A stretch of DNA of 64,000 bases from Caulobacter sp. Root1455. Its GTDB lineage: Bacteria > Pseudomonadota > Alphaproteobacteria > Caulobacterales > Caulobacteraceae. The notes below the pieces were generated by a model, which did not search any database, was not told the origin of the DNA, and was given only the letters and a program-made list of their open reading frames with translations. The DNA lies in assembly GCF_001426905.1 (NCBI RefSeq), contig NZ_LMFQ01000020.1:427758-491757 (forward strand), written 5' to 3'. The position numbers and the translations under genes are program-made. Shown piece by piece: positions 23,792 through 55,343 of the stretch; position 1 is the first letter of the stretch; each line of letters begins with the position of its first letter.

Positions 23792-23834
23792 TGTCACCCC
23801 GGATCTGCGCGCTGCGCGCTCGTCCGGGATGACA
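23792..23834. repeat. short palindromic repeat, family D
   Basis: TGTCACCCCGGATCTGCGCG faces CGCGCTCGTCCGGGATGACA. It is a reduced copy of the longer family-D elements at 31738, 52817 and 54641, directly after xerD. Confidence 0.8.
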
Positions 23835-31737: not shown

Positions 31738-31840
31738 TGTCATCCCGGACAAGCGCGTAGCGCGCCGATCCGGGACCGCCGGAAGCGCCGGCGCTCAGGC
31801 GTCGGTCCCGGATCTTCGCTGCGCTACGTCCGGGATGACA
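31738..31840. repeat. palindromic intergenic repeat, family D
   Basis: TGTCATCCCGGACAAGCGCG at the left is complementary to the right end TACGTCCGGGATGACA. GATCCGGGACCG and CGGTCCCGGATC form the inner arms. It lies between the OsmC gene and the 66-aa gene. Confidence 0.88.
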
Positions 31841-49914: not shown

Positions 49915-50565
49915 ATGCGTCGTCTTTGGGTTCGGAAACTGGGGGTTCTGGGACTGGTCGTCACGGTCGGCGCGCTGGCCGGCTGCGCCACCATGAGCAA
50001 GGAGGCCTGCCTGCAGGGCGACTGGGCCGGGGTGGGCTTCAAGGACGGCGAGGCGGGGCGTCCGCAAAGCCGTCTGGACGACCACGCCAAGGCCTGCGCC
50101 AAGGCCGGGGTGGTTCCCGACGCCGCGCCCTATTTCCAGGCCCGCGACCAGGGGCTGAAGCTGTATTGCACCCAGGACCGCGGCTTCAGCGAAGGGCGCG
50201 ACGGCAACGCCTATGCCGGGGTTTGCCCGCAGGGACCCGAGCGCGGCTTCCTGATCGGCTATGCCGACGGCCAGCTGGTGAACGCGGCCGTGTCGCGCCT
50301 GAGCCAGGCGGAATCGGACCGCCAGAGCGCCGACCACCGCGCCGAGAAGCGCGACCGCGAGGCGCGGGGCGTCGAGGACGAACTGAAGAATCCCCAGCTG
50401 AACGACGAGCAGAAGCACGAACTGCGCGACCGGCTGAACCGCCTGCGCAGCGAGCGCCGCCAGGCGGTCGAGGACGGCCGCCGGGCCGACTGGGCCGCCC
50501 GCGACGCCGAGCGCGAGGTGGACGAGTTGCGGCGCCGGTTCGGGCCGCGATATGGCGGGTGGTGA
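49915..50565 (+). CDS. DUF2799 lipoprotein
   Basis: The 216-residue product has a lipobox (LVVTVGALAGCATM; the Cys follows AG) so it is probably an envelope lipoprotein. The conserved DUF2799 part follows: KEACLQGDWAGVGFKDGEAGRPQSRLDDHAKACAKAGVVPD and YCTQDRGFSEGRDGNAYAGVCP. A charged coiled coil (about residues 120-200) of Glu/Arg heptads completes it. Function unknown. ATG 49915 follows GGGGAG, which is part of a hairpin. Confidence 0.9.
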   Translation: MRRLWVRKLGVLGLVVTVGALAGCATMSKEACLQGDWAGVGFKDGEAGRPQSRLDDHAKACAKAGVVPDAAPYFQARDQGLKLYCTQDRGFSEGRDGNAYAGVCPQGPERGFLIGYADGQLVNAAVSRLSQAESDRQSADHRAEKRDREARGVEDELKNPQLNDEQKHELRDRLNRLRSERRQAVEDGRRADWAARDAEREVDELRRRFGPRYGGW

Positions 50566-50574
50566 CGCGACGGG

Positions 50575-50705
50575 ACGCCCCCTCCGTCACGATGCGTATT
50601 CGCATCGCGCCACCTCCCCCGCCTTGCGGGTGAGGAGGATGCGGCGTCTTTCTCCTCCCCCGTGCAACGGGGGAGGTGGCGGGCGAAGCCCGACGGAGGG
50701 GGCGT
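50575..50705. repeat. palindromic intergenic repeat, family A
   Basis: ACGCCCCCTCCGTCACGATGCG at the left and CCCGACGGAGGGGGCGT at the right, inner CACCTCCCCCGCCTTGCGGG. It separates the convergent DUF2799 and bufD-like genes. Confidence 0.87.
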
Positions 50706-50716
50706 CTTGGGAGGCC

Positions 50717-51187
50717 TCAGCGAATCCCCAGCACCCGATCCAAGCTCCACTTCCCGCCGCCCTTGGCCACCAGGAACAGCAGGATCGCGGCCCAGGACAG
50801 GTGGGTGCTCCAGGCGTCGGGATAGACGAACACCTCGATCACCAGGGTCATGCCCAGGAAGGCCAGGGCCGAGATCCGGGTGAACAGGCCCAGCACCAGC
50901 AGGATCGAGAACAGGTGCTCGCTGTAGGTCGCCAGGTGGGCGGCGACGTCCGAAGGGATCAGCGGCAGGGCGTATTCGTCGGCGAACAGCGAATAGGTCC
51001 CGTCGGTGATGTGCAGGATCCCGTCGACCTTGGTGCGTCCCGACAGGAAGAACACCGAGGCGACGCCCAGGCGCGCGACCAGGGTCAGGACCCCGTCGGG
51101 CAGGGCGCGGTGGGCCAGGACGGCCAGGGCGTCGAACGGACGGCTCCAGGGACGCGAGGGGGCGGGGGCGAGCATCTGGTCGGTCAC
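50717..51187 (-). CDS. DoxX-family membrane protein of the bufferin-type operon
   Basis: The 156-residue product has four membrane segments: [57 protein letters not shown], and [16 protein letters not shown]. This is the DoxX/TQO-small-subunit-like fold. It is the last gene of the operon and starts at a GTG that overlaps the preceding stop (GTGA). DoxX proteins regularly close DUF2282-DUF692-DUF2063 operons; the role is unknown, possibly respiratory-chain or metal related. Confidence 0.9.
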
Positions 51188-51966
51188 GCGAGGTCTCCAA
51201 GGTCGAGGCCGCTGAACGCACCGTCGGCGATCAGGGCGGCGAAGAGGGTTGCGAGGTCGGCGGCGGGGTTCGCCCGGGCCGCGGCGGTGATCGCCTCGCC
51301 CAGGCTCGCCCCGTCGCGGGCGGCGGTCAGGAAGGCGAAGCCGGCGGCGTCGAGCAGGCGGCCATGCACCATGTCGTCGGGCCGGGCGATCAGGACGCCC
51401 TGCGGGTCGTCGGTCAGCGCCATCTCGCCGGGCTCGGGTTCGCGGGCCGCCAGCCACAGGCCGGGCAGGCCGCTGTCGAACCAGGCGAAGGCCAGGCTGG
51501 GATGCAGGCGCGGGCGGGCGGCGGCCAGGGCGTCGGGCGCCAGGGCGAAGGCTTCGGCGGCCAGCGGCTGGGCCTCCGGCGCGAACAGGGCGGTGGTCCA
51601 CATCCGATCCAGCCGGGCCATGGCCGGCAGGTAGGGCAGGTCGTCGGCCGGCGGAAAGCGGTCCAGCCAGTCCGGGAAGGCCTCGCCATAGGCCAGCAGG
51701 GCGGCGCTGGTCGGCGGATGCTCGCGGACGAACAGGGCCGCGGCGGCGCGGAACCAGTCGTCGCCGACCAGGCTGGCCACGGTCGGGAAGTTGGCGGCCA
51801 GGGCGTCGACGCAGCCCTTGGCGATGGTGTTGCGATAGACGGCCAGGCCGGCGGGCTCGGCCTCGCCGTCGCCCTCGCCGTTTGGCAGCCAGGCGGCGAT
51901 CGGCGCGGATGCTCGCTCGGCGAGGGCGGCGGCGAAAGCGTCCTGGAAACGGCCCAGCTCAGACAT
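51184..51966 (-). CDS. bufC: DUF2063-family partner protein (BufC/HvfC-like)
   Basis: The 260-residue product belongs to the DUF2063 (HvfC) family. Markers: [73 protein letters not shown]. It lacks membrane segments. In characterised systems this partner binds the precursor peptide and presents it to the DUF692 enzyme. Start ATG 51966; it overlaps the DUF692 gene by 8 bases, and its own stop overlaps the DoxX GTG, so translation of all three is coupled. Confidence 0.9.
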
Positions 51967-52789
51967 GGGCCGGCTCCCGCTTCGCCAGCATCCCATGCGC
52001 CCGGTTCCGCTCAGCCATCAGCACGTCGAAGGCCGGGATGTCGTCGTCGCGCTCGATCAGGGTCGGACGGGGGCCGATCCGGTCGACCAGGCGGCGGTAC
52101 AGGGTCCAGACGGGCTCGGCGACCGGGGCGCCGTGAGTGTCGATCAGCAAGCTTGAGCCGCCCTCATCGGCGCCGTGGCCGGCCAGGTGGATCTCGCCGA
52201 TGACCTCGGCGGGCAGGGCGTCCAGATAGGTCTCGGCGGCGTAGCCCAGGTTGCTGGCGCTGACGAACACGTTGTTGACGTCGACCAGCAGGCCGCAGCC
52301 GGTGCGGCGGGTCAGGTCGATCAGGAAATCGGTCTCGTCCAGCGCGTGACCGGTCAGCGGCAGGTACAGCGACGGGTTCTCGACCAGGATCGTCCGTCCA
52401 AGGACGTCCTGGGTGCGGCCGATGTTGCCGGCGATCCGGTCGAGGGCCGCGCGGGTGCGGGGAAAGGGCAGGAGGTCGGGCTGGTGGACGCCGCGATGGG
52501 TGCTCCAGGCCAGGTGCTCGGAGATCACGAACGGCTCGAACCGATCGGCCAGGGCCTTCAGGGCGAGCAGGTGGGCGGGGTCCGGATCGGCGTCGGCGGC
52601 CAGGGACAGGCCCACCCCGTGCAGCGACAGCGGATGCCTGTCGCGGACGGCCTGCAGCCAGCGCAGGCGCGGCCCGCCGGCGGCCATGTAGTTCTCGGGA
52701 TGGACCTCGAACCACAGGCCCGCGTCCTCGGCCGCGAGGGCTTCGGCGTAGTGCTGCGGTTTGAGGCCGAGGCCGGCGGTGGGGGACAT
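51959..52789 (-). CDS. bufB: DUF692 multinuclear non-haem iron enzyme (BufB/MNIO)
   Basis: The 276-residue TIM-barrel enzyme has the MNIO His/Asp/Glu set: FEVHPENYM, LHGVGLSLA, ISEHLAWSTH, ILVENPSLY, LLVDVNNVFVSASN and GEIHLAGHGAD. Enzymes of this family use two or three irons to modify Cys or other residues of a precursor peptide. Here the precursor is encoded just upstream (52938-53222), with a palindromic repeat between. Full length for the family. Confidence 0.95.
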   Translation of the reverse strand: MSPTAGLGLKPQHYAEALAAEDAGLWFEVHPENYMAAGGPRLRWLQAVRDRHPLSLHGVGLSLAADADPDPAHLLALKALADRFEPFVISEHLAWSTHRGVHQPDLLPFPRTRAALDRIAGNIGRTQDVLGRTILVENPSLYLPLTGHALDETDFLIDLTRRTGCGLLVDVNNVFVSASNLGYAAETYLDALPAEVIGEIHLAGHGADEGGSSLLIDTHGAPVAEPVWTLYRRLVDRIGPRPTLIERDDDIPAFDVLMAERNRAHGMLAKREPAHV

Positions 52790-52816
52790 GGGATGTTCTT
52801 CAAATCAACAAGAGCC

Positions 52817-52918
52817 TGTCATCCCGGACGAAGCGAAGCGCAGATCCGGGACCGCCGGAAACGCATGCGCTCTGGGTCGGTCCCGGATCTTCGCGCTTCG
52901 CGCTCGTCCGGGATGACA
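52817..52918. repeat. palindromic family-D repeat inside the bufferin operon
   Basis: TGTCATCCCGGACGAAGCG at the left and CGCGCTCGTCCGGGATGACA at the right, inner GATCCGGGACCG and CGGTCCCGGATC. It fills the gap between bufA and bufB, so the transcript carries a strong hairpin at this point. Confidence 0.88.
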
Positions 52919-52937
52919 GCGTTGGGGCGGGCGTGGC

Positions 52938-53222
52938 CTACATCGAGGTCTTCGGGGTCAGCGAGCCCGTGCCGTTCGGGGTCTTGATGCTGGTGCAGGT
53001 GCCCTTGGCGACCTTCTTCCAGGCGTCGCCCTGATAGTCGGCCTTCGAGGTGCCCGCGCACGAGGTGCCGGCGCCGGCCTTGCAGTCGTTGTGGCCGGCC
53101 TTGGCGATGCCGTAGCACTTTTCCATTTCCATCTTGGCCGGCTTGGCGTCGTCGCGGGCCATGGCGGCGCCGGCGCTCAGGGCGAACACGGCGGCGAGGG
53201 CGAGAGCGGGGGTGCGGTTCAT
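52938..53222 (-). CDS. bufA: DUF2282 precursor peptide (bufferin, BufA1-type)
   Basis: The 94-residue product has a Sec signal peptide ([19 protein letters not shown]) and a short mature peptide. It has the four Cys of the DUF2282 family: C36 in [15 protein letters not shown]47, C55 in [10 protein letters not shown], and C76 in KGTCTSIK. In BufA proteins of Caulobacter, Cys residues are modified by the DUF692 enzyme to bind copper in the periplasm (recalled from recent work, not checked). First gene of the operon, 75 bases downstream of a SigF-like promoter. Confidence 0.93.
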
Positions 53223-53297
53223 GGAGGCGTTTCCTTCGTCTGGTGCGACCGAGCCCGGCGCCGTTCGTCGGCCCGTCCTGCGCGGTCAAAGGGGAGT

Positions 53298-53323
53298 TAC
53301 GGACGGGCGCCGCGAAAGGTTAC
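53298..53323 (-). promoter_or_regulatory. SigF-type promoter of the bufferin operon
   Basis: On the minus strand, GTAACC (53323-53318), 16 bases, CGTA (53301-53298). It differs from GTAACC-N16-CGAA by one base in the -10 element. The -35 and spacing are exact. Confidence 0.78.
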
Positions 53324-53403
53324 ACCGGTATCCGAACAAAAAAGCGGCGCGCCGAAAAACGCCGGACAGCGCCAGACCCGGTTCCCGCTTTCCGCGACGC
53401 GGT

Positions 53404-53429
53404 GTAACCATCAGGCCGTCTCGCGCGAA
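53404..53429 (+). promoter_or_regulatory. SigF autoregulatory promoter
   Basis: GTAACC (53404-53409), 16 bases, CGAA (53426-53429), an exact match to the Caulobacter SigF consensus. It is divergent from the bufA promoter and lies only 13 bases before the sigF GTG, so the transcript leader is very short. Confidence 0.88.
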
Positions 53430-53441
53430 CAAGGGGGAGGC

Positions 53442-53984
53442 GTGACGGAAACCGAGGCCGCCCTGAAGGCGCTGATGCTGTTGAGCCTGGACGGCGACGC
53501 CCCGGCCTATCGGCTGTTGCTGTCTCAACTCGGCGGCCGGCTCCGCGTCTATTTCGAGCGCCGCATGCGCGACGCTTCCGGCGATGTGGAGGATCTGGTG
53601 CAAGAGACCCTGATGGCGGTGCATACGCGGCGCGCGACCTACGATCGCGCCCAGCCGTTCACCCCTTGGGCCTTCGCCCTGGCGCGCTACAAGCTGATCG
53701 ACCACTGGCGGCGGCGGAAGGTGCGGGTGACCCTGCCGATCGACGACTATGTCGAGGTCCTGGCCGCCTATGCGCCGGAACCCGGCTCGGCCATGGACCT
53801 GGACAAGGCCCTGGAGACCCTGCCCGAGCGCCAGCGCAACCTGGTGCGCGACGTCAAGATCGAGGGTCTCAGCCTGGCCGAGGCCGGCGATCGGGCCGGC
53901 GTCAGCGAGGGCGCGGCCAAGGTCGCCCTGCACCGCGCGCTGAAGAGTCTCGGAGAAAGGATGCGTGGCCGTGCGGACGGATGA
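53442..53984 (+). CDS. sigF: ECF sigma factor SigF
   Basis: The 180-residue product has ECF region 2 (RRMRDASGDVEDLVQETLMAVHTRRATYDRAQPFTPWAFALARYKLIDHWRR) split by short gaps, and region 4 (LPERQRNLVRDVKIEGLSLAEAGDRAGVSEGAAKVALHRALKSLGERM). It is a small ECF of the SigF/ECF16-like group. In Caulobacter SigF responds to copper and oxidative conditions through NrsF. The GTG start at 53442 lies behind GGGGGAGG. It overlaps the nrsF start by 20 bases and is divergent from the bufA operon, as in C. crescentus. Confidence 0.93.
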   Translation: MTETEAALKALMLLSLDGDAPAYRLLLSQLGGRLRVYFERRMRDASGDVEDLVQETLMAVHTRRATYDRAQPFTPWAFALARYKLIDHWRRRKVRVTLPIDDYVEVLAAYAPEPGSAMDLDKALETLPERQRNLVRDVKIEGLSLAEAGDRAGVSEGAAKVALHRALKSLGERMRGRADG

Positions 53985-54612
53985 TCTGATCGATCAGCTG
54001 GCGGCGCGACCGCGCGCCATCCCGGCCGGGGCGGTGCAGCGTCGGTTCGTCGGCGTGGCCGTGGCCGGAGGCCTGGCGGCCTTGGTGATGGTGCTGGCCT
54101 GGCTGGGCACGCGTGAGGACCTGGCCCAGGCCATGACCGGCCGGATGTTCTGGATGAAGGCGATCTACACCGCCCTGCTGGGCGTGGCGGGCTTCTGGGC
54201 CCTGGAGCGCCTGGCGCGGCCGGACGGCGCGCCGCGCAAGGCGTTGCTGTTCGGGGCTCTGGTGCTGGCGCTGTTCGTCGGCATGGGCTTCGGCCAATGG
54301 CTGGCCGCCGACTGGGAGCATCGCCGGTCGATGATGATGGGCGGATCCTGGAAGGTCTGCTTCCGCTACATCCTGACCCTGGCTCTGCCGGGGCTGGCGG
54401 CGACGCTGGTGGTGCTGCGCGGCATGGCCCCGACCCGCCCGGCCCTGACCGGCTTCGCGGCCGGCGCCTTCGCCGGCGGCGTGGCGGCCACGGTTTACGG
54501 CCTGCACTGCGGCGAGAGCACGATGGTGTTCGTGGGCACCTGGTACACCCTGGGCGTGCTGGGGACCGGGGCGCTGGGGGCGTTGGTGGGTCGGTGGGCG
54601 CTGCGGTGGTGA
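53965..54612 (+). CDS. nrsF: NrsF-family membrane anti-sigma factor (DUF1109)
   Basis: The 215-residue inner-membrane protein has six hydrophobic segments and the DUF1109 layout. A short N-terminal cytoplasmic part (RTDDLIDQLAARPRAIPAGA) binds the sigma factor. Two Cys, C132 (GGSWKVCFRYI) and C182 (YGLHCGEST), fall one residue from the two Cys reported essential in Caulobacter NrsF (131 and 181). NrsF holds SigF at the membrane until metal or oxidant stress. It starts within sigF. Confidence 0.92.
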   Translation: MAVRTDDLIDQLAARPRAIPAGAVQRRFVGVAVAGGLAALVMVLAWLGTREDLAQAMTGRMFWMKAIYTALLGVAGFWALERLARPDGAPRKALLFGALVLALFVGMGFGQWLAADWEHRRSMMMGGSWKVCFRYILTLALPGLAATLVVLRGMAPTRPALTGFAAGAFAGGVAATVYGLHCGESTMVFVGTWYTLGVLGTGALGALVGRWALRW

Positions 54613-54640
54613 GCGCCCTTCACGTCTGAAAACGCAAAAA

Positions 54641-54755
54641 AGCCTGTCATCCCGGACGAAGCGCGAAGCGCGAAGATCCGGGACCGGGCCGAAGCGCTGA
54701 GCTCTGGCGTCGGTCCCGGCTCTCCGCTGCGCCGCGGCCGGGATGACAGGCTTTT
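54641..54755. terminator. family-D repeat acting as a two-way terminator
   Basis: AAAAAAGCCTGTCATCCCGG at the left and CCGGGATGACAGGCTTTT at the right. The outer A6/T4 runs put a U-tract after the long stem in both directions, so it can end both nrsF and the convergent efp. Confidence 0.8.
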
Positions 54756-54773
54756 GGAAGCTCTAGGCGAAGC

Positions 54774-55343
54774 CTAGTCCTTCGCGCGTTCCTGGTACGA
54801 ACCATCCTCGGTCAGGATGATCACCCGGGTGCCCGAGGCGATGTACGGCGGCACCATGGTGCGCACGCCGTTGCTGAGGATGGCCGGCTTGTACGACGAG
54901 CTGGCGGTCTGGCCCTTCACCGAGGGTTCGGTCTCGACGATCTCGAGGGTCACGGTGCGCGGCAGTTCCAGGGCGATCGGCACGTCGTTGTGCGTCGACA
55001 GGACGACGGTCATGTTTTCCTGCAGATAGGCGCCCAGGTCGCCGATCACGTCCTCGGAGGCGACCAACTGGTCGAAGGTTTCCGGGTTCATGAAGTGGTA
55101 GCCCTCGCCGTCCTGGTACAGGAAGGTGTGGTCGCGCTGGTCGACGAAGGCGCGCTCGACCTGCTCGGTCGTGCGGTAGCGTTCCGACACCTTCACGCCG
55201 TCCGAGATGCGGCGCATGTTCAGCTGGGTGACCGGCGTGCCCTTGCCGGGGTGGATGTTTTCGGCGTTGAGGACAACGTAGAGCTTGCCGTCCATATCGA
55301 CGACGGAACCCTTCCTCAGCGAGCTGGCGGCGACTTTGGTCAC
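54774..55343 (-). CDS. efp: translation elongation factor P
   Basis: EF-P relieves ribosome stalling at polyproline stretches. The 189-residue protein has the three-domain EF-P layout: KYV-type N-domain with the tip loop [11 protein letters not shown]34 being the lysine modified by EpmA, then domains II and III ([27 protein letters not shown]...[20 protein letters not shown]). GTG start at 55343. It is divergent from epmA, whose product attaches beta-lysine to K34. Confidence 0.97.

Follow-up and report, generated by a model that had tools for sequence, protein, structure and literature searches.

A SigF-NrsF / bufferin-1 locus in Caulobacter sp. Root1455, orthologous to CC3252-CC3257 of Caulobacter crescentus, with a folded bufA-bufB gap and a candidate msrA promoter

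We report that positions 50717-54612 of a 64-kb stretch of the Caulobacter sp. Root1455 genome (contig NZ_LMFQ01000020.1; here referred to as the window, 64,000 nucleotides in full) hold six genes, bufA-bufB-bufC-doxX and, divergent from these, sigF-nrsF, and that this locus is orthologous to CC3252-CC3257 of C. crescentus. It is very probably the Caulobacter SigF-NrsF / bufferin-1 system, which makes a periplasmic copper buffer. The copper-buffer reading is well supported through homology and is already known rather than new; we treat the locus as the orthologue of a characterised system because SigF control, the promoter, the cysteines, copper induction and the bufferin itself are published there. 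Our analysis recovers each component of that system in this genome and in many others of the genus, and the additions beyond it are modest: a folded gap between bufA and bufB, and a promoter motif before msrA.

Gene content, promoters and conserved residues of the system are all present in this genome (5.08 Mb, 26 contigs; Table 1). An initial annotation had placed here a DUF2282 peptide, a DUF692 enzyme, a DUF2063 partner and DoxX together with an extracytoplasmic function (ECF) sigma factor and a DUF1109 membrane protein, and Pfam confirms the family of each. BufB exceeds the cut-off of the NCBIfam bufferin-maturase model MNIO_BufB (354.3 vs 310 bits), and PDB entry 3bww can be aligned to its residues 18-218 and 214-267. 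With phmmer neither BufA (best E 0.031) nor BufC (best E 0.014) had a significant hit in PDB; 3DEE is reported as a solved DUF2063 protein (PMC13097082). The eight named relatives identified through NrsF (71-92% identity) are without exception Caulobacter, and at gathering thresholds Rfam gave no match within 50000-55000. The sigF start lies directly 3' of its promoter and a GGGGGAGG stretch, and sigF overlaps nrsF by 20 nucleotides (nt). The genes bufB and bufC overlap by 8 nt and bufC and doxX by 4 nt, whereas bufA is separated from bufB by 148 nt with a strong hairpin in between, and the earlier description of one coupled operon thus holds for bufB-bufC-doxX but not for bufA.

Table 1. Features of the SigF-NrsF / bufferin-1 locus (window positions) and of two candidate SigF targets elsewhere in the genome; aa, amino acids
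Feature	Position	Strand	Description	Support
doxX	50717..51187	-	Bufferin-operon membrane protein, 156 aa, GTG start	Pfam DoxX 63.9 bits (cut-off 23.6)
bufC	51184..51966	-	DUF2063 partner protein, 260 aa	Pfam DUF2063 86.8 bits
bufB	51959..52789	-	DUF692/MNIO enzyme, 276 aa	Pfam MbnB_TglH_ChrH 322.8 bits
Strong hairpin	52816..52919	-	Dispersed TGTCATCCCGG inverted repeat	dG -89.3 kcal/mol, z -10.1 (200 dinucleotide shuffles)
bufA	52938..53222	-	DUF2282 bufferin precursor, 94 aa	Pfam PF10048 86.3 bits (cut-off 22.4)
SigF-type promoter of bufA	53298..53323	-	GTAACC-N16-CGTA	Motif match
SigF-type promoter of sigF-nrsF	53404..53429	+	GTAACC-N16-CGAA	Motif match
sigF	53442..53984	+	ECF sigma factor, 180 aa, GTG start	Pfam Sigma70_r2 45.3, Sigma70_r4_2 43.4 bits
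nrsF	53965..54612	+	DUF1109/NrsF anti-sigma factor, 215 aa, GTG start at 53965	Pfam NrsF 210.6 bits
msrA	G000:C21:449418-450082 (L022)		Signal peptide by eye	SigF-type promoter motif
DUF1223 gene	G000:C7:52824-53616 (L011)			GTAACC-N16-CGAA 58 nt before start

BufA starts with a hydrophobic stretch (residues 4-22, then AMA-R) that was judged by eye to be a signal peptide, and it has the four cysteines that had been noted earlier, at residues 36, 47, 55 and 76. In an alignment of the kind the initial annotation had proposed as a check (121 DUF2282 sequences, the window's and 120 listed among 4980 homologues) these are kept in 121, 121, 119 and 121 sequences, respectively, and all four are found in each of the 25 distinct BufA proteins of the loci compared below. 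The same four-cysteine pattern is seen in Buf1 of C. crescentus/vibrioides, where the two central cysteines are reported to be modified and the outer two disulfide-bonded (PMC12452194). NrsF has two cysteines, Cys132 and Cys182 as numbered from the GTG start, and both are common to 32/32 distinct NrsF sequences, the window's included. Their counterparts in CC3252, C131 and C181, do lie one residue away; to call the latter essential, as had been done, is to overstate the case, which is that their change to serine raises expression of the regulon (PMC3511200). Three NrsF segments pass a plain hydropathy scan; the criterion for ECF16 anti-sigma factors is six transmembrane helices.

For the orthologous C. 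crescentus/vibrioides locus (sigF-nrsF, CC3253-CC3252, and CC3254-CC3257), Kohler et al. 2012 (PMC3511200) report the same six genes, the promoter GTAACC-N16-CGAA with a start site 61 nt upstream of CC3254, and SigF dependence, and the holding of SigF by NrsF and its release under stress have been shown by fractionation in C. crescentus. All six genes, sigF and nrsF as well as the buf genes, are reported to be induced by copper (two of the values being significant by a laxer test only), and a sigF::Tn5 mutant to be copper-sensitive, with a chromate/cadmium sensitivity like that of the wild type (PMC8224329). Bufferin 1 of C. vibrioides carries thiooxazoles and chelates copper (PMC12452194, PMC13097082), in agreement with the earlier statement that BufA peptides are modified for copper binding. 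The proposal that the operon yields a copper-sequestering peptide released by SigF activation finds its support in homology to this published locus.

By analogy with the orthologue, the metal response, the modification, the export and the copper binding would proceed here as follows. NrsF would keep SigF at the inner membrane, as in the C. crescentus experiments, and excess metal would disturb NrsF, probably via its two conserved cysteines, so that SigF is freed and can read both divergent promoters. BufA would be synthesised with its signal peptide, and BufB together with its partner BufC would oxidise the central Cys47 and Cys55 to 5-thiooxazoles. Sec would then export BufA, the outer Cys36 and Cys76 would pair as a disulfide, and the exported BufA would buffer copper in the periplasm, with DoxX as a putative accessory membrane protein.

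The two promoters, which read exactly as the initial annotation gave them, precede bufA and sigF and are the only occurrences of GTAACC-N16-CGWA in the window, where shuffles gave an expectation of 0.02; on this count a chance origin of the pair was rejected. That the divergent motifs arose by chance, or are sites of another ECF sigma factor, gains something from the short form GTAACC-N16-CG, which is not enriched in the genome because its 35 copies fall below the 125 of the reversed pattern. We nevertheless give this alternative almost no weight, considering the rarity of the full form, its retention throughout the genus and its agreement with the experimentally mapped SigF promoters of C. 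crescentus. For the comparison across the genus we took 38 loci including the window's, removed eight without an adjacent bufA and five duplicates in gap sequence, and searched the remaining 25 for GTAAC...CGWA with the sixth -35 base free and spacers of 14 to 18. Gene order is retained together with the motif, which precedes bufA in 25/25 of these loci, the window's included, and sigF in 20; the motif was also present at most 300 nt before sigF in three of the eight loci without an adjacent bufA. Among 16 loci from other genera of the Caulobacteraceae, 15 have a related but less strict motif before bufA, the exception (L101) being a cut-off locus.

A different account of the signal is that the system responds mainly to thiol-reactive metals or to reactive chlorine or oxygen species, with BufA buffering another metal or serving as a sacrificial thiol. 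C. crescentus SigF was indeed first linked to chromate and cadmium, its ECF16 relatives are reported to answer H2O2 (EcfF) or HOCl (BcrS), and msrP and msrA, whose products repair oxidised methionine, are likely further targets here. We still consider this account improbable: the C. crescentus regulon is induced by copper, the sigF mutant is sensitive to copper yet reported like the wild type towards chromate and cadmium, and none of the oxidants H2O2, t-butyl hydroperoxide, paraquat and diamide raised expression of the two SigF-dependent genes CC3255 and CC3252 beyond twofold (PMC3511200). The earlier claim that SigF regulons respond to copper and oxidants can accordingly be kept for copper, whereas its oxidant part fails for the C. 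crescentus genes that were assayed. Several observations weigh against the copper-buffer reading itself. The sigF-side motif is absent in 5/25 loci (L048, L049, L050, L065 and L067), and in C. crescentus sigF is reported as not strongly autoregulated, a second regulator apparently being needed, while survival of dichromate or cadmium is independent of sigF and CC3255 (PMC3511200). The S. meliloti relative is reported not to be induced by H2O2, cadmium or chromate. Moreover, BufA does not match the NCBIfam model BufA1 and matches BufA2 below threshold only (26 of 60 bits), and NrsF, BufC and DoxX all stay under the cut-offs of the NCBIfam models that they match (AntiSigF_NrsF, 256.5 bits against a stricter cut-off of 300; HvfC, 36.0 against 142; the HvfX family, 50.6 against 80); these missed cut-offs are model thresholds and not defining features.

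The gap between bufA and bufB is the first of the two additions. Its hairpin is formed by a dispersed repeat, the 11-mer TGTCATCCCGG having 16 copies in 361,333 bases of the genome, two of them inside the hairpin; further repeat arms in the window lie at 23824, 31738-31840, 54645-54748 and 61826. Among the 25 non-duplicate loci, 23 have a bufA-bufB gap of 67-159 nt (it is 3 nt in L046, and L042 is without an adjacent bufB). With three extra loci of the genus added, gaps of this length are found in 26 of the 27 Caulobacter loci with adjacent bufA and bufB, and by dinucleotide shuffles, scored as for the control gaps, 25 of these 26 have z < -2.5 and 20 have z < -4 (L041, z -2.1). The 26 gaps form nine similarity clusters that are mutually unalike at E 1e-4. 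T runs in the last 45 nt are of at most 4 across the 26 gaps (the longest is 3 in the window's), so the hairpin is no classical terminator. For the other Caulobacteraceae genera we used the 16 loci above, which are part of the family matches: bufA and bufB are adjacent in 15 (not in L099) with gaps of 2-68 nt, and no folded gap was seen in the loci examined, the three that are long enough to fold having z between -0.4 and -1.1.

A role for the hairpin in setting an excess of precursor is plausible. As a functional element it would raise BufA over its enzymes, by protecting or processing the 3' end of the bufA message or by partial termination, and this would supplement the copper-buffer explanation rather than compete with it. 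The recurrence of a folded gap in nearly every Caulobacter locus and across nine unrelated clusters argues for such an element, as do the short, weakly folding gaps of the other genera and the overlaps of bufB-bufC-doxX in contrast to the spaced bufA-bufB. On the other hand, hairpins are common in other gaps of this genome as well: of the 71 co-directional gaps that are 60-170 nt long, 22 have z < -2.5 and 13 have z < -4, a rough figure because the naive gene calls missed bufA itself, and z is < -2.5 in 16 of 25 convergent but none of 22 divergent gaps. One orthologous control gap, picked for its hairpin, keeps one in 22/30 relatives (control gaps 1 and 3 gave a usable gap in only 2/30 and 3/24 loci), and dispersed repeats alone could account for much of the pattern; the short T runs and the weak fold of L041 also speak against the element. 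All in all we see a functional element as a genuine possibility but lean slightly to the other side. The text of PMC12452194 makes no mention of a hairpin, attenuation or stoichiometry.

The second addition concerns the wider SigF regulon. Of the 35 genomic short-form sites nine extend to CGWA, and these precede bufA, sigF, an msrP/CC2748-like molybdopterin oxidoreductase gene (the msrP-like identity is backed by Pfam), msrA, a DUF1223 gene and four others (L025, L027, L104 and L106), these four probably by chance as judged by eye. An msrA match (E 1e-40) is present in 62/75 genomes of the genus, and the 50 that remain when the 12 most distant are left out were compared. The motif precedes msrA in 30 of the 33 genomes whose best NrsF score is 180 bits or more (G008, G046 and G062 lack it) and in two of the 17 with a weaker or no NrsF match, namely G027, where that match falls into two pieces, and G063, which has no such match and is assembled in 680 contigs. 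These genomes are not independent, and nine of the 17, with NrsF scores close together at 136-149 bits, possibly form a single clade. Hence msrA is likely, on these predictions, to be a further SigF target, although the msrA homologues CC0994 and CC1039 are reported as unchanged in C. crescentus microarrays, which weighs against it; it would be an extension and no surprise, because ECF16 sigma factors of other bacteria are known to control Msr genes. The motif before the DUF1223 gene is found in 9/30 loci, all within the 11 closest orthologues (reversed control 2/30), and this gene is a possible target.

Taken jointly, the two additions would describe a hairpin that is conserved in shape, refilled from unrelated repeats and sets precursor excess, and a SigF regulon that includes a periplasmic MsrA and so links copper buffering with methionine repair; we put this forward as a rather doubtful proposal. 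Two points are open to testing: whether msrA is a SigF target overlooked by the earlier microarrays, and whether the bufA-bufB hairpin sets the amount of precursor relative to the modifying enzymes.

Related loci were seen elsewhere. A second MNIO (342 bits with the BufB model) with a DUF2063 partner lies at G000:C21:499771-504107 (L001; L119:12119-14107), where no DUF2282 gene is found and the MNIO is preceded by a 662-aa Ferritin-like (PF12902) protein with a C-terminal part that looks rich in Cys and Gly. The ferritin-like gene is present in 6/149 family genomes and by coordinates directly precedes an MNIO in all six; its product is possibly a protein-sized MNIO substrate. A second NrsF-like stretch follows close 3' of nrsF in 12 of the 38 compared loci (L048, L049, L050, L052, L054, L060, L062-L065, L067 and L068) and not in the window's. 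In a plasmid collection, 259 records have a BufA-like match (E 1e-5), 60 of them from Escherichia and 17 from Klebsiella.

Unlike C. crescentus with its second operon CC2907-CC2905, this genome has a single DUF2282 gene and therefore lacks such an operon; here the second MNIO follows the ferritin-like protein. Among more distant systems, EcfF-OsrA of Bradyrhizobium, RpoE7-EcfR7 of S. meliloti and BcrS-AbcS of Brucella are likewise reported to pair an ECF sigma factor with a two-cysteine membrane anti-sigma factor, and these ECF16 sigma / DUF1109 anti-sigma pairs share the GTAAC...CGAA-type promoter. The targets of EcfF, whose signal is H2O2, and of BcrS, whose signal is HOCl, include genes for methionine sulfoxide reductase, and RpoE7 drives a DUF692/DUF2063 operon but did not answer H2O2, cadmium or chromate. 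In the captophorins (fontiphorin, oxazolin and gonophorin) and methanobactin a DUF692/MNIO enzyme also oxidises cysteines of a copper-binding ribosomal peptide, as reported, although the precursor families differ from that of the bufferins; methanobactin uses MbnC as the partner protein and serves to scavenge copper, not to buffer it (PMC12452194).

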